From Acidimicrobiia bacterium (GTDB lineage Bacteria > Actinomycetota > Acidimicrobiia > Spongiisociales > ZC4RG35): a stretch of 50,968 nucleotides of DNA. Position 1 is the stretch's first letter. The number at the start of each line of letters is the position of its first letter. This document shows positions 41,454 through 50,968 of this stretch, in pieces. The notes beneath the pieces are model-generated. The model was given only the letters and a program-made list of their open reading frames with translations. It searched no databases and was not told the DNA's origin. The stretch lies in NCBI GenBank assembly GCA_025928935.1, contig JAICNB010000014.1, forward strand, positions 1 to 50,968. The letters run 5' to 3'. The position numbers and the translations under genes were made by a program.

Positions 41454-42164
41454 TCAGCCGCGGGCAGGCACGCGGCGCATCAGAGTGGAGCGGAGAAAGA
41501 GACTGATCCCGGCCCCGAAGACAAAGCCTCCGGCATGTGCCTCCCATGCCGTGTTGGTGCCGCCCAGCCCGAATTGGGCCACGAACCAAAAGATCAGGAA
41601 GAGTGCCGCCGGCACGGGAAGCAGGAACCATCCGACCAGGGACAGCACCCGGTGGCCGGGGAACAGGACCACATAGGCGCCCATGGCCACGGCGACGGCA
41701 CCCGAGGCCCCGACGAGCGGCACCGTGGCTTCCGGGTTGAGGCCGACATACGCAGCCGTCGCCGCCAGCCCTCCGACCAGGTACATCAGTAGATAGCCGA
41801 TGTGCCCGTATGCCTCCTCGACGTTGTTGCCGAAAATCCACAGAAACCACATGTTGAACAACACGTGGCCCACGCTCCCGTGGAGGAACATCGAGGTCAC
41901 CAGGGCGAGGAACACGTTCTTGTCGGGGAAGAGCGGGTCCTGGGATCCCGCCTCACAGGTGTCGTTGACTATCTCGTCGATCCCCAGGGGAAAACCGGTG
42001 GTCACCTCACACGAGATGGCCGCCCGCTCGTAGACGAGTGCCTGCTGCTCTTCCACCGTCCCTCTGCCCTGGATGAGGAAATAGACGAGGAGATTGGCGC
42101 CAATCAGGGCCAGGGTGACGATGGGGGTGATTCGGGTCGGATTGACGTCGCGTAGCGGGAACAA
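41454..42164 (-). CDS. Rhomboid-family intramembrane serine protease
   Basis: 236 aa. Catalytic Ser154 in GASGAVAVAMG and His210 in EAHAGGFVFG, with supporting His100 and Asn104 in HGSVGHVLFNMWFLW. Six or so membrane helices, plus a ~50-residue acidic, Cys-containing loop after helix 1. It should cleave membrane protein substrates, which are unknown. The start reads TTG at 42164, with CATTCT six bases upstream and no ribosome site; a leaderless TTG is unusual, so the exact start is uncertain. Confidence 0.92.
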   Translation of the reverse strand: MFPLRDVNPTRITPIVTLALIGANLLVYFLIQGRGTVEEQQALVYERAAISCEVTTGFPLGIDEIVNDTCEAGSQDPLFPDKNVFLALVTSMFLHGSVGHVLFNMWFLWIFGNNVEEAYGHIGYLLMYLVGGLAATAAYVGLNPEATVPLVGASGAVAVAMGAYVVLFPGHRVLSLVGWFLLPVPAALFLIFWFVAQFGLGGTNTAWEAHAGGFVFGAGISLFLRSTLMRRVPARG

Positions 42165-42188: not shown

Positions 42189-42392
42189 CTATCCGACGAT
42201 CCCCGAGTCGTCAGACAGACCCTCCGCCTCTACGGCTGGGCCCGGTGGCACCCGGAGGAAAGAGACGAGCTCCTCGGTGGTCCGGAACCTGTCGCTCCGC
42301 CCCGACGCGATGTGCTCCACGACGCCGCGAAGGCTCGTCTCCTCCTCCCCGTCGGCCATGGGCCCCCACACCCGCACCACGAAGGTGTCCAT
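42189..42392 (-). CDS. 67-aa conserved-type small protein next to the BTAD regulator
   Basis: MDTFVVRVWGPMAD … TSLRGVVEHIASGRSDRFRTTEELVSFLRV: a short alpha/beta protein of the kind often found beside large ATPase-TPR-BTAD regulators. It has no catalytic motif. The ATG is 7 bases after a CACAAT -10 box and lies directly downstream of the SARP-type site at 42413-42431, so it is a likely direct target of the neighbouring regulator and is probably made from a leaderless mRNA. Confidence 0.78.
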   Translation of the reverse strand: MDTFVVRVWGPMADGEEETSLRGVVEHIASGRSDRFRTTEELVSFLRVPPGPAVEAEGLSDDSGIVG

Positions 42393-42399
42393 TCGCCGA

Positions 42400-42431
42400 A
42401 TTGTGCGCCTCCCCCTTAGCGATGTCTTAAG
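42400..42431 (-). promoter_or_regulatory. SARP-type direct repeat and -10 before the 67-aa gene
   Basis: On the minus strand: CTTAAGACATCGCTAAGGG (42431-42413), with hexamers TTAAGA and CTAAGG at an 11-bp period, then seven bases, CACAAT (42405-42400), seven bases and the ATG. It overlaps the TAA stop of the regulator. It matches 17 of 19 bases of the site at 45710-45728, with the same distance to the -10. Confidence 0.65.
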
Positions 42432-45400
42432 CCAGAACGGGGAAGGAGGCCGGCTCCACTTCGAGCTCGGCCATCCGTGTCACGTAGGTGCGGTAGAGAC
42501 GTCTCGCCGACCCGTGGTGCCCTGCCGTCGCCATGGCAACCACCAATCCCAGGTGGGCGGGCTCGTCATAGGGATCTTGCTCGAGGATGCGCATGTACCA
42601 CCGCGCCGCGGCGTCGTTGTCCCCGGCCCCCACATCGGCATCGGCCAGGAGACGGGCGATCGAGATGAACTCGGTCCGCGCCTCTTCCCTGAGCCCGATG
42701 GCCCAGTCTGCGTAGGGATGGTCTTCGAGGAACTCTCCGACGTAGCGGGCTTCCGCCGACCTGAGCATGGCGAGGCCGGCCCCTAGCTCACCGGAACGAA
42801 GGAATGAGCGGCCCGTGCCAGCCTCCCGAAAGAAGGCATCCACGTCCACCTCCACATGATCCAGGTTCAGGCCGAGAGACTCACGGGCTGCCACCAGGTA
42901 ATGGTCACTCCCGTGGATACGGCCTGGGTCGAAGACACCACGGATGGTGCTGAGGGCCACGGAGAGCCTGTTGCCGGCCTTGGCCGGGTCGTCGTCGGGC
43001 CAGAGGCGCTCGATGACCACCTCACGATGGACCGCCCTGCCCCGGTTTGCGGCGAGCATTCCCACGATCTCCCTGGCGACACGGGACTGCCAGGCCGACG
43101 ATGGGACCGCCTGATCACAGACCACCACCGAGAAGCCGCCCAGCGTCCGGATGCCGACGTCACATGCATCCCACTCGGTGGCTGCGACCCTGGCTGCGTC
43201 GAGAGCCAGGCCCTTGGCCCCGAGCTGACGGAGGCTGGCGGCTGCGGCGTCGGCAAGGGCGACATCACCCCCGTCGAGCCCGGCCAGGGCGAGGTCGACC
43301 CGGGCCACCCCGACGGGCGCATCGATCTCCTCCCACACCCGGCGAGCCTGCTCGAGCAAAGACCGTGCCCGACCCTGGTCCTCGATGGCAGCTGCCTCGA
43401 GCTCCATCGCCTCGGCCAGGCCGGGGAGATCCTGGCGGGAGCGGGCCACGTCGGCCGCCTCCACCGCCTTTGCTTGGGCTTCGTCGGCCGACCCGGCTGC
43501 CAGGGCTACGAACCCCTGTGCAAGCACGGCGCGTACGTGGCCGATGACCGATGTCACTTCGGCGGCCCGGTCGGCGAGCCGGCCCGCTCGCTCCGGGTCG
43601 TCCTCGGCCAGGACACGGGCCAGGCCGGAGAGGGCGGGCACCAACGCCTGGAGGTCATGGCCCTCCTCACCCAGCCGGATCGCTTCCTCATAGCCGGCCC
43701 TGGCCAGCGCCTTGTCGCCCCGCAGGGCATAGACATCGGCCATCTGAGCCAGCGGATATGACTCGAGGATCGAGCCCATCTGCCTGAACACCTCCCTCGA
43801 CAGCTCGAGGTCGGCCACCGATTCCTCCAACCTTCCCAGACCGGCCATGACCTGTGCCCGGTTGGAGAGTGCCATCCCTCGCCACAGCTGAAACCCCGTC
43901 ATGTCGGCCAGACGCAGCGCCTTGTCCAGCTCGGTGAGGGCATTGGCGTAATCACCTTGCTCCAGGAAGTGGGAGCTCCGATTCGACCTGATCCGGACCG
44001 TCTGAAGGACGTCTCGCGCCCTCTCGGCGTGTTCCAGGGCGCGCAGGTAGTGGAGATGGTTTCCGGCCCGATCACCGTCCATCGCCGCCACCATGGCCAG
44101 GACGGTGTGAGCCGTGGCCAGCGCCCCCGAATCATCAGCCCGCCGGGCCAACTCGAGAGCCTCGTTGGCGAGGCGCTTCGCCTCGTCGCGCTCTCCTTTC
44201 AGCCAGTGGGCGCTCGCCGTCCACCCGACGAGGGCAGCCTCGCTGGCCAGGTCGCCCTCCCCACGCCTTCCCCGCCGATAGGCGTCGAGCGCGGCCGTCA
44301 CATCGCCGCGCATGTGGCTCAGAAACCCCAGGCGCCATGCCAGCCGGGCCGGCATCTCTCCCGAGCCAGGGGCCAGGGCCTCGTAACAGTCGGTCGCTCC
44401 TTCCCAATCGCCGAGCACCTGTCTCGCCTCGGCCTCGAAGAGGAGGACGTCGCGGTTGCGCCGCCCACGGGGGACGCGCTCGATCGCCTCCACCATCTGC
44501 CGGGCCAGCCCCGCCGCCAACATCCTCTCTCCCCGTTCCGAGACGAAGCGGGCTATCTGGTCCTCCGACGCCAACCTGACGAGGCTCTCCATCGCTTCCG
44601 ACACGGCCCCTTCCTGCTCGTACAGGTTCGAGGCCTCCAACAGGAGCTCCCCTATCTCGTGAGGGTCGAGAGGATGGTTCTCGAGGAGGTACTCGCGAAC
44701 GAGCGGTGAAGGACTGATCGCCCCCGGGTGGTTCGGGGCCGGGATCACATAGACGCTGCGACGATGGGCGTCGAACCAGTCCGCCGACCCGGCACCGAGG
44801 CCGAGCCGGGCCACCATGGCGGCCGTGACCCAAGGAAGCGGTGCGATCATGCGAAGTGCGGCCAGGGTCTCTGGTGTCTCAGAGGTGATCACCTCCTCGG
44901 CCAGGTAGTCGAAGAGGGTCGAACGATCGATGCCGGGAGTCACATCTCCCTCGAGATCGTCGAGTCTTGCGCTCAGGGCCACTGCCATCGGCCACCCCCC
45001 GGTCTGGTCGAACACCGATCGTGCAGTTTCGGGATCGGTCCCGGTCCCCATCTCGAGCAAGGCCGCGATCTCGTCGACGGTAAAGGCGAGCTGGTCGGCG
45101 GTCATCTCGCCGGCCTGGCCCTGGAGCTTCATGCGGCTGGTGGCGAAGGGCAATGGCGCCCGGGTGGCGATGATCACGTGGAGCCGCTCGGGGGCGTTGC
45201 GGCACAGTGCTGCGACCAGGCGAACTGCTTCGCCACTGGGACCCAGGACATGGAGGTCGTCGAGCACCAGATAGAGGTCTCGGGACAAGCGTGCCTCCAG
45301 CTCGCGACAGAGCTCTGCGGCCAGTGAGTCGGCCCGCTCCGATCGACCTGCAGCCGAGTCGGGCCCTCGCCCGCCCTCGACCGCGAGCCAAAAGTCAGGG

Positions 45401-45648
45401 GATAGGTCGGGGACCTGCAGACGCAACTTGTCGAGAATGGCGCGGGCGAGGATGGACACCGAGGTGTCCGCAGGCGTGACCGTGTGCCACAACGACGGCT
45501 TCCGGCCCAGCCACTGCAGGAGCAACGTGGTCTTACCAGTGCCGGCCCCCCCGGTGAGCACTGTCAGGCGGCGGGCCGCAGCTTCATCGAGCAAGGCCTC
45601 GAGACGCGGCCTTCGCAGAGTGTCCGAGTGGGACCGGCTGGTGGTCAC
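42427..45648 (-). CDS. Large ATPase-TPR-BTAD transcriptional regulator
   Basis: 1073 aa from a GTG at 45648 with AGGAG 5 bases upstream; the open frame to 45693 begins inside a TTGACA and is less likely. N-terminal STAND/MalT-like ATPase with Walker A TGGAGTGKTT (residues 32-41) and LYLVLDDLH; a long TPR-like helical middle (~330-820); then a winged-helix domain (~830-930, RTLGGFSVVV … HREVVIERLWPDDDPAKAGNRLSVALSTIR) and a C-terminal BTAD (~940-1073, ending RMAELEVEPASFPVL). This is the AfsR/SARP DNA-binding module placed at the C-terminus, reversed from AfsR. It probably activates the 67-aa gene and a promoter before the aidB-like gene. Confidence 0.92.
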   Translation of the reverse strand: MTTSRSHSDTLRRPRLEALLDEAAARRLTVLTGGAGTGKTTLLLQWLGRKPSLWHTVTPADTSVSILARAILDKLRLQVPDLSPDFWLAVEGGRGPDSAAGRSERADSLAAELCRELEARLSRDLYLVLDDLHVLGPSGEAVRLVAALCRNAPERLHVIIATRAPLPFATSRMKLQGQAGEMTADQLAFTVDEIAALLEMGTGTDPETARSVFDQTGGWPMAVALSARLDDLEGDVTPGIDRSTLFDYLAEEVITSETPETLAALRMIAPLPWVTAAMVARLGLGAGSADWFDAHRRSVYVIPAPNHPGAISPSPLVREYLLENHPLDPHEIGELLLEASNLYEQEGAVSEAMESLVRLASEDQIARFVSERGERMLAAGLARQMVEAIERVPRGRRNRDVLLFEAEARQVLGDWEGATDCYEALAPGSGEMPARLAWRLGFLSHMRGDVTAALDAYRRGRRGEGDLASEAALVGWTASAHWLKGERDEAKRLANEALELARRADDSGALATAHTVLAMVAAMDGDRAGNHLHYLRALEHAERARDVLQTVRIRSNRSSHFLEQGDYANALTELDKALRLADMTGFQLWRGMALSNRAQVMAGLGRLEESVADLELSREVFRQMGSILESYPLAQMADVYALRGDKALARAGYEEAIRLGEEGHDLQALVPALSGLARVLAEDDPERAGRLADRAAEVTSVIGHVRAVLAQGFVALAAGSADEAQAKAVEAADVARSRQDLPGLAEAMELEAAAIEDQGRARSLLEQARRVWEEIDAPVGVARVDLALAGLDGGDVALADAAAASLRQLGAKGLALDAARVAATEWDACDVGIRTLGGFSVVVCDQAVPSSAWQSRVAREIVGMLAANRGRAVHREVVIERLWPDDDPAKAGNRLSVALSTIRGVFDPGRIHGSDHYLVAARESLGLNLDHVEVDVDAFFREAGTGRSFLRSGELGAGLAMLRSAEARYVGEFLEDHPYADWAIGLREEARTEFISIARLLADADVGAGDNDAAARWYMRILEQDPYDEPAHLGLVVAMATAGHHGSARRLYRTYVTRMAELEVEPASFPVLA

Positions 45649-45709
45649 CTGTCTCCTGCGGAGGAGGGGGGCGTATTTAACCGAACTTGTCAAGGGCGGG
45701 CCGATTCAC

Positions 45710-45741
45710 CTTAAGACTTCACTAAGGGCCGCCCATATCGT
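45710..45741 (+). promoter_or_regulatory. SARP-type direct repeat and -10 facing the aidB-like gene
   Basis: CTTAAGACTTCACTAAGGG (45710-45728) with TTAAGA and CTAAGG at an 11-bp period, seven bases, then TATCGT (45736-45741). SARP activators are known to bind 11-bp-period repeats ending about 8 bp before the -10. Predicted transcription start near 45748. Confidence 0.65.
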
Positions 45742-45794
45742 CAGTCGCAGGTCCTGAGCGGAGGAACGCGAGAGAGGGCGGGGGTTCGGGCCAG

Positions 45795-45820
45795 GGGGGC
45801 GGACTATGTCCGCCCCCTTT
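45795..45820 (+). terminator. GC-rich hairpin, terminator or attenuator
   Basis: Ten-bp perfect stem (GGGGGCGGAC / GTCCGCCCCC) with a TAT loop followed by only three T. On the plus strand it stands between the SARP-type promoter and ATG 45848, where a normal gene terminator is not expected because no gene ends here. Confidence 0.6.
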
Positions 45821-45835
45821 GCCCGTCTGGCTCCA

Positions 45836-45847: not shown

Positions 45848-47485
45848 ATGGGTGACACCCACGAGGTGACCAACCAGCCACCCCCACTCGTGGACTACGA
45901 CATGGCCGCGGCCGACCCGGTGTTGAGCGACGCACTGGCCAGGGAAGGGGCGGGAGACCGGTTGGCGGTCGTGGAGCAGCACGGTCGGCTCATGGGCGTG
46001 GCGGAGACATTCGGCTGGGGGGCGCAGGCGAACAAGAACCCTCCCGTTCTCCACACACACGACGCCTGGGGCAACCGGGCAGACATCGTCGAGTACCACC
46101 CCTCGTGGCATTCCCTCCTCGGCCTGGCAGTAGAGCATGGATTGCACAGCCTGCCATGGGAGGCCGATCCGGGGGATGGATCGCACCCAACTCGGACAGC
46201 TCTCACTTTCCTCGCCTCCCAGGTGGAAGCCGGTCATTTCTGTCCCGTGTCCATGACCACGTCCGCGGTCCCCGTTATCCGTCGACAGCCCGACCTGGCC
46301 CTCGAGTGGGAGCCGCTTCAGCTGGCCCGCGCTTATGACCCGTCGTTTCGGCCAGCATCGAAGAAGTCGGGGGTCTTGGTCGGGATGGGGATGACCGAGA
46401 AGCAGGGCGGGTCGGACGTCAGGGCAAATACGACCCGAGCCACTCCGATCGGCAGCGACGGCGAATTCGTGCTCACCGGTCACAAGTGGTTCATGTCTGC
46501 CCCGATGAACGACGCTTTTCTCGTTCTCGCCACGACCGGGAAAGGTCTGTCCTGTTTCTTCCTCCCCCGCTTCACGCCCGACGGCGAGGTAAACGGGATC
46601 CGGATCCAACGTCTCAAAGACAAGCTGGGGAACCGATCGAATGCCTCAACGGAGGTCGAGTTCGACTCTGCTTGGGCCCGTCTCATCGGCGAAGAGGGCC
46701 GCGGGGTGGACGAGATAATCGAGATGGTGGCCGGCACCCGCCTCGACTGCGTGACCGGTTCCTCTGCACTGATGCGACAGGCGGTCAGCCAGGCGATCCA
46801 TCACACCGTGCATCGACGGGCATTCGGGTCTCCCCTGGTGGAGAAGCCACTCATGCGCAACGTCCTCGCCGACCTGGAGATCGAGACCGAAGCCGCGGTG
46901 CTGCTGATGATGCGGTTGGCGGGAGCCTTCGATCGAGCGCCGATCGATGAGAATGAGGCGAGGATCAGGAGGATCCTCACGCCGGTGGCCAAGTACTGGG
47001 TCACCAAACGATGCAGCGAGGTGGTGCGCGAGGCTCTCGAATGCGTGGGCGGCAATGGGTACGTGGAGGAGTCGATAATGCCCCGCCTGTACCGGGAGTC
47101 GCCGGTGAACGCGATTTGGGAGGGGTCGGGCAACGTCATCGCCCTCGACCTGGTTCGGGTGATCTCGGGTCACGCCGAGGCTGTCGACGCCCTCGAGGCC
47201 GAGCTCGAGCTGGGCCTGGGAGTCGACCCTCGACTCGACGGCGCCGTCCGGTCGGCACTCGAATCGGCGCGGGGCCACAACGACGCCGAATACGAGGCGC
47301 GCCGTCTGGCCGAGGGCTTGGCATTGGCGTTGACGGGCACACTCCTCGCCCGACACGGACGACCCGAGGTGTGGCGAGCATTCGCCTCGAGCCGTCTCTC
47401 TCCGGGCCACGGCTCCCTCTACGGCACCCTGCCCGTCGGGCTCGACGTTGCAGAGATCATCGAGCCGGCCATTCCCCGGCTCTGA
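45848..47485 (+). CDS. aidB: AidB-like acyl-CoA dehydrogenase family flavoprotein
   Basis: 545 aa. AidB hallmarks: GMGMTEKQGGSDVRANTT, HKWFMSAPMNDAFLVLA, DKLGNRSNASTEVEF and RESPVNAIWEGSGNVIALD; the length also matches AidB. AidB binds FAD and DNA and is tied to the alkylation-damage response in E. coli, while relatives have weak isovaleryl-CoA dehydrogenase activity. No Ada/Alk gene is near, so the role here may differ. The gene lies opposite the BTAD regulator, past a SARP-type site and a hairpin. Confidence 0.92.
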   Translation: MGDTHEVTNQPPPLVDYDMAAADPVLSDALAREGAGDRLAVVEQHGRLMGVAETFGWGAQANKNPPVLHTHDAWGNRADIVEYHPSWHSLLGLAVEHGLHSLPWEADPGDGSHPTRTALTFLASQVEAGHFCPVSMTTSAVPVIRRQPDLALEWEPLQLARAYDPSFRPASKKSGVLVGMGMTEKQGGSDVRANTTRATPIGSDGEFVLTGHKWFMSAPMNDAFLVLATTGKGLSCFFLPRFTPDGEVNGIRIQRLKDKLGNRSNASTEVEFDSAWARLIGEEGRGVDEIIEMVAGTRLDCVTGSSALMRQAVSQAIHHTVHRRAFGSPLVEKPLMRNVLADLEIETEAAVLLMMRLAGAFDRAPIDENEARIRRILTPVAKYWVTKRCSEVVREALECVGGNGYVEESIMPRLYRESPVNAIWEGSGNVIALDLVRVISGHAEAVDALEAELELGLGVDPRLDGAVRSALESARGHNDAEYEARRLAEGLALALTGTLLARHGRPEVWRAFASSRLSPGHGSLYGTLPVGLDVAEIIEPAIPRL

Positions 47486-48481: not shown

Positions 48482-50968
48482 TCACCCGGAGGCAGTGGAG
48501 GAGAGAAGGAGCCCGCGGAGGGGGATGTCCACCCAGTCGGGCCGGTTGTTGAGCTCGTAAGACAGCTCGTAGGCGGCCTTGTCCAGGACCAAGGTGTCGA
48601 GAAGGAGCTTTAGATGACCGTGGTCGACCGGGATCAGAGGGGTGCCCTCCGTTGTCGCTAGATAGCCCCTGAGGAAGGCAGCCGCCAGCCACCGGGCCAG
48701 CGCATCACCCCACTCGGCGAGATGGACCGTGTGGCCGGGCTCCTCGACACCGCTCTTCATCGCCTCGCGAAGGGCCATCTGAGTCGTGTACTGGTAGGAC
48801 CGGATCATCCCGGCGACGTCGCGCAGGCCGAGCCGCTTGATCCGTCGCTCGGAGATGGGGCGCTGCGGCTCCCCCTCGAAATCGATGATGACGAAGTCGT
48901 TACCGGTGAACAGGACCTGGCCTAGGTGATAGTCGCCATGGATCCGAAACCGGACGGCATCGATCTTCTCGGTTGTGATCGATCGCAGATCGTCCAGGAT
49001 CGTCGACTCGAGCCCGAGCACGGAGTCGGCAAGGTCTTCTTGTTCCGGGGTGAGATGGCTGCGGCGCCGCCTGAGCAGGTTGAAGCTGGTCCTGATCGAA
49101 GACCGCGTCGACTGGTACAGCGACCGCTGGTAGAGCGTCGACAGCCGCTCCGGTGTGAAGGCCGGGTCATCGGTCGCTGAGGCGAGGGCCAGATGCATCT
49201 CAGCAGTTCGCTGACCCAGCAACCGGGCCTCGTGCAACGGGATCCCGATGAGATCCCGCATGACGTCCAGCTCGTCGTCGCCGACTTCCAGGGGATGGGG
49301 GACGGCCGGAGCGGAGCCCAGCTCGTCGCGGCGAGCCGCCACCTGCTCGTAGACCATGGACAGCGCGTCGAGGGTATGAGACCAGGCATCGCCGAGACTC
49401 GGCACGAACCTGTGGAAGACCGCGAATGCCGCCTTCCTGCCATTCATCGAGACCTCCAGGGCCCCCATGGTCTGCGCCGCGTTCTCGAATCGGGAGCTCT
49501 CGGTGAGGAACCGGCCAACCTCGACCTCCGGGTTGGGGCCGGCGTCGAAACGACGAAACAGCTTGAGGACGACCTGGTCGCCGAACATGACCGAGGTGTT
49601 GGACTGCTCACCATGACCGGGCCGTGCCGGCTGGCCATCGATGGCCTCGGCCAGGCCACGTGACGCCGCCATGGGCAACGCAGATACCACTGTTTCCTTG
49701 CCCTTGAGCTTCTTGCGCTGGGCGGCCAGACGGGTCAGGGCCAGCCCAAAGGCGGGCTCTGCCGACGCGTCGTAGAGCAGACCTGTCTCGGCCCGCCCCA
49801 CCACCTCGGCGATCACCGATGTCGGAGCCTCGAGAAGCCTCCGCTCCGAGTCGACGCCCACCGACACGGCGATCGGGAAGGCGTAGACCTCCGGATCTCC
49901 CTCGACGTAGTCGATTTGAACGAAGGCGACCGTGCAGTCGGCCCCGGGGATGTCGACCCGGTCGACGATGTGGCCACCCCGGATCGTCTGGGCTTTGCTC
50001 CGGAACCAGCGCCGGCCCTCGATGTCGCCCACGAGCGCTCTCTCGAGCTCTCGGCTGGTGCGGAGCACCCCTGTCACCTCGCCCTCGACTGTGATGCGCC
50101 GCAGACCGGCCGGCTCCTCGGCGAGGGCAGTCGACCTGTCCAGCTCGAACCAGAAGAAGTCGTGGGGACCGATGGTGAGGAGATAGGGGTTGGGCCCGAC
50201 CGCCGGAAAACGGGCCCGACCGAAGAGCTCGACGGGCTCGACCCCCTCGAACCCGTTGAGGTCGAGCTCGACCGGTTGAGAGTGCCGGGAGAGGTTGGCC
50301 ACCACCAAAACCGATCCCCCTCCCAAGGTCCGGAGGAAGGCCAGGACCTTCGGGTTCTCGTTGGGGACGAACTCCAGACTGCCCCTGGACAGCTCCGGCA
50401 TGGCCTTGCGCAGCGTGAGGGCGCGTTTGACCCACCACCACAACGAGTTCGGATTGTCCCTCTGCACCTCGACGTTGACCGTCTCGTAGTGGTACTCGGG
50501 GTCGGTGATGATCGGGAAATAGAGCCGCTGGGGGTTGGCGTCGGAGAAACCGGCGTTGCGGTCCCCGGACCACTGCATCGGGGTGCGCACCCCGTTGCGG
50601 TCACCAAGGTAGACGTTGTCTCCCATGCCGATCTCGTCGCCGTAATAGAGGACGGGGGTGCCGGGCAGAGAGAGCAGGAGGGCGTTCATCAACTCGATCT
50701 CACGCCGGTTGTTCCCCAGCAAGGGGGCCAGCCTGCGTCGTATCCCGACGTTGATCCTGGTCTGGGGGTCGTCGGCGTAGACCCGGTACATGTAGTCCCG
50801 CTCCTCGTCGGTGACCATCTCCAGGGTCAGCTCGTCGTGGTTGCGGAGGAAGATCGCCCACGCAGAGCCCTCGGGGATCGGCGGCGTCTGCTCGAGGATG
50901 TCGATGATCGGGAACCGGTTCTCCATCCTGAGCGACATGAAGAGACGGGGCATGAGAGGGAAGTGGAA
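48482..50968 (-). CDS. treS: Trehalose synthase-maltokinase fusion, 5' end outside window
   Basis: The frame is open through the right edge (FHFPL precedes MPRLFMSL at the edge), so about 828 codons of a longer gene are visible. The first ~290 are the C-terminal part of the GH13 trehalose synthase (FLRNHDELTLEMVTDEERDYM, PGTPVLYYGDEIGMGDNVYLGDRNGVRTPMQW); the catalytic Asp and Glu lie outside. The rest is maltokinase: cap region, ATP site near FGDQVVLKLFRRFD, and catalytic HGDYHLGQV and IIDFEGEP. The fusion turns trehalose into maltose and then maltose-1-phosphate, the donor of the GlgE alpha-glucan pathway. It ends 9 bases from the convergent DUF4126-like gene. Confidence 0.93.
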   Translation of the reverse strand, partial: FHFPLMPRLFMSLRMENRFPIIDILEQTPPIPEGSAWAIFLRNHDELTLEMVTDEERDYMYRVYADDPQTRINVGIRRRLAPLLGNNRREIELMNALLLSLPGTPVLYYGDEIGMGDNVYLGDRNGVRTPMQWSGDRNAGFSDANPQRLYFPIITDPEYHYETVNVEVQRDNPNSLWWWVKRALTLRKAMPELSRGSLEFVPNENPKVLAFLRTLGGGSVLVVANLSRHSQPVELDLNGFEGVEPVELFGRARFPAVGPNPYLLTIGPHDFFWFELDRSTALAEEPAGLRRITVEGEVTGVLRTSRELERALVGDIEGRRWFRSKAQTIRGGHIVDRVDIPGADCTVAFVQIDYVEGDPEVYAFPIAVSVGVDSERRLLEAPTSVIAEVVGRAETGLLYDASAEPAFGLALTRLAAQRKKLKGKETVVSALPMAASRGLAEAIDGQPARPGHGEQSNTSVMFGDQVVLKLFRRFDAGPNPEVEVGRFLTESSRFENAAQTMGALEVSMNGRKAAFAVFHRFVPSLGDAWSHTLDALSMVYEQVAARRDELGSAPAVPHPLEVGDDELDVMRDLIGIPLHEARLLGQRTAEMHLALASATDDPAFTPERLSTLYQRSLYQSTRSSIRTSFNLLRRRRSHLTPEQEDLADSVLGLESTILDDLRSITTEKIDAVRFRIHGDYHLGQVLFTGNDFVIIDFEGEPQRPISERRIKRLGLRDVAGMIRSYQYTTQMALREAMKSGVEEPGHTVHLAEWGDALARWLAAAFLRGYLATTEGTPLIPVDHGHLKLLLDTLVLDKAAYELSYELNNRPDWVDIPLRGLLLSSTASG

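Follow-up and report, generated by a model that had tools for sequence, protein, structure and literature searches.

A predicted STAND-type SARP regulator and its adjoining small-protein gene in an Acidimicrobiia genome

The stretch of DNA analyzed here (the window) comprises 50,968 nucleotides from an Acidimicrobiia bacterium and is one entire contig (C4; JAICNB010000014.1) of a 3.08-Mb genome, 98% complete, that is labelled G000. It contains a 1088-codon open reading frame for a regulator with a BTAD domain (42427-45693, minus strand), described here from the list of open reading frames, its domain matches and the predicted fold of its last 249 residues, and this gene is flanked by two similar DNA sites. 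We consider it probable, with a likelihood of about 75%, that the regulator is a STAND-type SARP activator, that its main target is the adjoining gene for a 67-residue protein, and that the second site drives a short RNA. In the proposed mechanism the activator would carry an ATPase and TPR sensor in front and a SARP-like winged helix with BTAD last; two protomers would occupy both 11-bp repeats of a site, replacing the −35 element, and would recruit RNA polymerase to a weak −10 element, the mRNA of the small gene beginning at or beside its start codon. The pairing of regulator and small gene would be ancient and extend across Actinomycetota and Chloroflexota, and the small protein, judged from its company alone, may be a dedicated output or feedback partner of the regulator. 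A further copy of the site, present in this genus on the other side of the regulator gene, would drive a short RNA terminated by a hairpin after about 75 nt, ahead of an AidB-like gene.

The two sites and the regulator

The site CTTAAGACATCGCTAAGGG (42413-42431, minus strand) lies upstream of the 67-residue gene and overlaps the stop codon of the regulator gene, whereas CTTAAGACTTCACTAAGGG (45710-45728, plus strand) is directed away from the regulator on its other side; both were read from the sequence and have counterparts in relatives. The two are identical at 17 of 19 positions, and each consists of TTAAGA and CTAAGG with an 11-bp period, the 19-mer being followed by seven bases (eight after CTAAGG) and then by a −10-like hexamer, which is CACAAT in the minus-strand site (42400-42405, 7 nt ahead of the small-gene start codon) and TATCGT in the plus-strand site (45736-45741). 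A preliminary description of this DNA had noted the near-identity of the sites, their period and spacing, and their outward orientation around the regulator gene, and in these respects it reads exactly as the sequence does. It had also called the geometry SARP-type, in agreement with the published rule that SARPs recognize direct repeats spaced by 11 or 22 bp, of which the 3′ one lies 8 bp before the −10 element (PMC10936776), and both window sites have this arrangement.

Pattern scans that allowed at most three mismatches found the two sites in the window where 0.02 were expected, two sites occurring in none of 100 shuffles, and found only the same two in the whole genome. The looser pattern YTAAG-N6-YTAAGG matched exactly at these two places only, with seven further matches at one mismatch, and genome-wide pattern scans for a wider regulon gave no clear further targets. 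It should be noted that the backward-read pattern makes a poor control: in these genomes it is common, whereas words rich in TAAG are rare. As judged from the sequence comparisons, the two are a real SARP-type regulatory site pair, binding itself being predicted. The open reading frame of the 67-residue protein (42189-42392, minus strand), supported by a family profile and an AlphaFold model, starts 7 nt past CACAAT and is predicted to be leaderless; transcription from its start codon would put TTAAGA at −38 to −33 and CTAAGG at −27 to −22, positions that fall within the pair of stretches contacted by AfsR (PMC10936776).

The likelier start of the regulator is a GTG at 45648, which is preceded by AGGAG. 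The protein begins with a STAND/AAA ATPase domain (Pfam AAA_16, residues 30-175), has TPRs in the middle, and carries a winged helix and BTAD at the C terminus (Pfam BTAD match at residues 949-1082, E 1.1e-13). The AlphaFold model of the last 249 residues has a predicted local distance difference test score (pLDDT) of 94.3, and VIA-align superimposes this part on AfsR (8k60; Z 18.6, 3.2 Å over 233 residues) and EmbR (2ff4; Z 18.0, 3.0 Å over 239 residues), with the next unrelated entry at Z 11.4; EmbR also gives a profile match at E 7.6e-13. The order of winged helix followed by BTAD that characterizes the SARP family is thus supported by the BTAD match, the model and the fold comparison. A SARP-like fold of the C-terminal part is likewise supported.

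Recurrence in relatives

Few genomes of its order have a full-length relative of the regulator (8 of 138 at E 1e-60). The regulator of G002, a genome of the same genus, is 73% identical to that of the window, and G002 carries TTTAAGACCGCACTAAGG ahead of its small gene and CCTAAGACTTCCCAAAGG at the second place, both as conserved islands amid diverged DNA. The preliminary description had stated that it would be contradicted if close relatives had the regulator but no longer the repeats, and had proposed aligning both regions; no such loss was seen, G002 retaining both sites. In G001, also of the same genus, no small-gene relative and no regulator orthologue were found: behind the rhomboid gene comes the end of the small gene, fused to AAGACTTCACTGAGG, so that one half-site (the first) has been removed and the second altered, and the plus-strand site has decayed. 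Regulator, small gene and intact site appear to have been lost together in this genome, which is a single case. The genome G124, from a different family and with a regulator 48% identical, has CTTTAAGCCAGCGCTAAGG-N7-GATACT-N6-ATG ahead of the small gene. The best match in G028 precedes a different gene, the start of which, as read from the sequence, is twin-arginine-like (RRTFL), the small gene being on the opposite strand; in G101 a repeat lies behind the regulator's stop codon, and the small gene was not found there. When the pattern YTAAGR-N5-YTAAGR, derived from G000 and G002, was applied to six held-out orthologues, matches were found that lay at or overlapped the predicted promoters.

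A first scan of the genome contigs with the 67-residue protein as query found no relative. Scanning with an alignment of the regulator gave 80 loci, which together with earlier ones made 87, three of them copies (L038 and L039, the same as L046 and L045, and L041, the same as L048) and 84 distinct. An iterated profile placed a small-gene homologue within 3 kb of the regulator at 41 of the 87 loci, or 39 of the 84 distinct ones, in Acidimicrobiia, Nitriliruptorales, Thermoleophilia, Nonomuraea and Chloroflexota. L044, whose start in the profile does not fall on a start codon, was left out of the statistics on promoters, and removal of promoters at least 60% identical over 60 bp left 21 non-redundant ones. 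In these, base identity at a lag of 11 was 0.38, compared with 0.27 in dinucleotide shuffles (z 7.1; none of 1000 as high), 0.28 in 1000 draws of random locus segments (standard deviation 0.016, maximum 0.348) and 0.28-0.29 in neighbouring control segments; no other lag from 5 to 22 rose above z 3.1. A NANNNT hexamer ending 6-7 nt ahead of the start codon is present in 14 of the 21 promoters (null mean 1.2, maximum 7 in 2000). The 11-bp repeat and the 14 hexamers together lead to the prediction that most such small genes are leaderless SARP targets. On a regulator tree (64 rows, quick method), nine changes of small-gene presence are required, suggesting many gains or losses of the small gene.

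A draw of 396 genomes spread evenly over the phylum, searched for the small gene at E 1e-4, gave matches in 20. The best eight (E to 2.2e-10) all adjoin the regulator; one is the window, five repeat earlier loci by their upstream DNA and two (L190 and L191) are new. Three of the remaining 12 adjoin another BTAD protein, and nine have no BTAD within about 1.5 kb. The earlier proposal that the 67-residue gene is a target of the regulator is well supported by this comparison, in which site, small gene and regulator recur jointly across phyla.

The repeats upstream of the small gene differ between groups, for example CCTGAACCAGACCTGAAC in Nonomuraea and CCCGAAGCCGACCCGAAG in Nitriliruptoraceae, and pair with the predicted recognition helix: NRLSVALSTIR with the half-site YTAAGR, (K/R)RLNVMVSTLR with CCTGAAC, and SRLSGLLSVAR with CCCGAAG. 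The Nitriliruptoraceae locus L115, unlike others of that family, has an RLNVM helix and a CCTGAAC repeat, and the Allorhizocola locus L093 has the same combination without the small gene; both regulators group with those of Nonomuraea on the tree, which suggests that the site type goes with the regulator and not with the host. CCTGAAC-N4-CCTGAAC occurs exactly only once in the 13.2-Mb genome of Nonomuraea jabiensis, at the small gene; the small gene may thus be a single target, although a second exact match occurs elsewhere in the genome of N. roseoviolacea.

Several further repeats were observed. Four Nonomuraea loci (L085:6365, L079:5147, L107:6458 and L096:6391) have a weaker second CCTGAAC-type repeat, with two or three mismatches, directly behind the small gene and preceding a gene that starts like a large ATP-binding regulator. 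In L050-L053 (Kribbella, and also Streptomyces sp. SID13031), repeats resembling GCTTTAAG-N3-GNCTGAAG lie behind the stop codon of the regulator and precede a short open reading frame of another kind (MAAPVH...). Threefold TAAG-type repeats with an 11-bp period stand far from the regulator at L123 (G028:C23:40991), before a lipoprotein-like gene containing CxxCH, and at L125 (G101:C163:3022), before a response-regulator gene; these are possible further SARP targets.

The AlphaFold model of the 67-residue protein is of type β-β-β-α (strands 4-9, 22-27 and 32-36, helix 39-47) with a pLDDT of 74.6, highest at residues 1-9 and 21-50, and Arg7, Gly23 and Phe36 are common to 30 family members. No fold in the PDB matches it at E ≤0.001 (best E 0.64), and the protein has no Pfam match; its family members give no strong Pfam match (three weak ones to DUF834, best E 6.5e-4), and NCBIfam likewise yielded nothing convincing (a single match, to NepR, at E 0.07). 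L199, L200 and L201, which come from three genomes of a single genus, each encode a diverged small protein (QSFVLRVWREEP...) divergently from another BTAD protein, perhaps a second such pair. At L194-L198, L202 and L203 a motif resembling EGEVV-VATG-F-S--ELAALL ends open reading frames of about 175-250 codons that match the small-protein profile weakly, and this motif possibly marks a wider domain. A rhomboid protease gene (41454-42164, minus strand) lies 24 bp behind the small gene, in the same gene order as in G002, and is possibly on the same transcript.

The plus-strand site and alternative explanations

Downstream of TATCGT there are 34 bases, then an 18-base block, GAGGGCGGGGGTTCGGGC (45774-45791, plus strand), that is identical in three species of the genus (G000, G001 and G002), and then a GC-rich, terminator-like hairpin, GGGGGCGGAC-TAT-GTCCGCCCCC, followed by TTT (45794-45820, plus strand) and kept in G001 and G002. 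The segment 45740-45825 folds better than 200 of 200 shuffles (z −3.4); a simple terminator scan did not pick up the hairpin, which has too few T residues. The block was considered as a repeated element and rejected, there being one exact copy in each of the three genomes, and an Rfam scan gave one sub-threshold snoRNA match, within aidB, that was regarded as chance. The AidB-like gene (45848-47485, plus strand) follows in G000 and is missing at the same place in G001 and G002; it was either gained in G000 or lost from G002. Farther downstream, a trehalose synthase/maltokinase-like fusion gene (48482-50953) is cut by the contig end and has a longer form in G002.

The preliminary description had the plus-strand site serve a transcript towards the AidB-like gene. 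This part of it is not supported: the conserved hairpin and TTT intervene, and G002 keeps the site and the hairpin with a converging Rv2632c-like gene next instead of aidB, so that the site more likely drives an RNA of about 75 nt (predicted at 45748-45822, plus strand, from the fold and the conserved block). A short RNA is the most likely product as far as these comparisons go. That the site nevertheless activates aidB, with the hairpin as a leaky or regulated leader, is improbable; the gene does start on the same strand, about 100 nt behind the predicted transcription start, but the hairpin of G001 likewise adjoins the Rv2632c-like gene, and TAGGAT, 6 nt before the aidB start codon, could be that gene's own leaderless −10 element. 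Autoregulation, in which the plus-strand site would control the regulator's own gene and not a divergent RNA, is unlikely to the same degree: the site stands about 60 bp in front of the GTG taken as the likelier start, in a shared intergenic region, but its hexamer and 8-bp spacing point away from the regulator, and most other loci carry only the small-gene site.

A different reader of 11-bp direct repeats, such as a response regulator of the PhoP/OmpR type, would be conceivable given that the afsS promoter is reported to have repeats that serve AfsR and PhoP alike (PMC10972967). It is considerably less probable than either of the preceding alternatives, however, since a global factor would have many sites, whereas these are unique in the genome, adjoin a SARP gene in many taxa, covary with its recognition helix and have lost their integrity where the regulator is lost (G001). 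There remains a very slight chance that the likeness of the sites is accidental or due to recent duplication, without function; only two copies exist in the genome, but their rarity, their preservation as islands in the diverged DNA of G002 and their recurrence in other taxa at a constant position are hard to reconcile with it.

Several observations weigh against an activator with the small gene as main target and a short RNA from the second site. No small-gene homologue was found at 45 of the 84 distinct loci; seven of the 21 non-redundant promoters lack a −10-like hexamer at 6-7 nt; and L066, L097, L099 and L115 are among those with no clear repeat at the expected place, although the start codons taken for L099 and L115 may be wrong because the repeat sits further upstream. 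The held-out matches were rarer than 5% of shuffles in only two of the six orthologues (G028 and G124), and the agreement of helix and half-site tracks the regulator tree and is hence not independent of descent. Because the block and hairpin persist in G001, which has no regulator, their conservation is not tied to the regulator and may have another cause. Finally, the support consists of sequence and model comparison (sites, spacing, conservation, co-occurrence and fold likeness), with binding, activation, transcription starts, the short RNA and the role of the small protein predicted from it.

Relation to known regulators

SARPs have been described as antibiotic activators in which the SARP part comes first. 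In the LAL/MalT architecture, an N-terminal ATPase and a TPR middle part precede a C-terminal DNA-binding output of the LuxR helix-turn-helix type. The present regulator shares with these STAND proteins the order of ATPase, TPR and DNA-binding output, but its output is a winged helix with BTAD, and no LuxR helix-turn-helix family is among its Pfam matches. Large SARPs of the AfsR type are defined by an N-terminal SARP followed by NB-ARC/STAND and then C-terminal TPR (PMC10972967); the regulator has its domains in a different order.

The closest known system is AfsR-afsS of Streptomyces coelicolor. In both, a large SARP has STAND ATPase and TPR parts (PMC10936776, PMC10972967), and a small-protein gene adjoins it as target, predicted here and paralleled by gene position and promoter repeat; a small gene next to the regulator with a repeat in its promoter was found in the window and among the 39 of 84 loci. 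The afs box of the afsS promoter (−40 to −19) comprises two 11-bp repeats, and 8 bp separate its 3′ repeat from a weak −10 element, CACTGT (PMC10936776); the window sites have the same period and spacing. The SARP domain is N-terminal in AfsR and C-terminal here, however, the half-site is CGTT(T/C)ATCG in the AfsR system and YTAAGR here, the small gene here is predicted to be leaderless, and the second site precedes a predicted short RNA. The arrangement is best regarded as a variant of AfsR-afsS, because it is predicted to work alike yet departs from the domain order of large SARPs. EmbR of Mycobacterium tuberculosis has the same winged helix and BTAD fold but a C-terminal FHA domain (PMC10936776) and no STAND/TPR part. 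The SARP-LAL regulators PimR, SanG and FilR also join a SARP output to a large ATP-binding regulator part (PMC10972967), but there the SARP is N-terminal and antibiotic gene clusters are served, whereas here it is C-terminal with a small-gene neighbor. Literature searches listed no work describing a C-terminal SARP with a small-gene partner.

A broader proposal, put forward tentatively and at slightly less than even odds, is that these genes form a widespread signalling pair, in which a turned-round SARP with STAND and TPR parts first would chiefly or solely target a leaderless small-protein gene; the product, which would form a separate family, would feed back on the regulator or relay its signal, with a short RNA as an additional target in this genus. 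The combination of a SARP-tipped STAND regulator with a small-protein gene occurs in Actinomycetota and Chloroflexota, and many of its carriers are uncultured and have small genomes; the regularity of the sites allows targets to be predicted from sequence, and the Nonomuraea carriers are culturable. If true, the proposal would add another pair of the AfsR/AfsS kind and offer an initial clue to what a small-protein family absent from Pfam and NCBIfam does.

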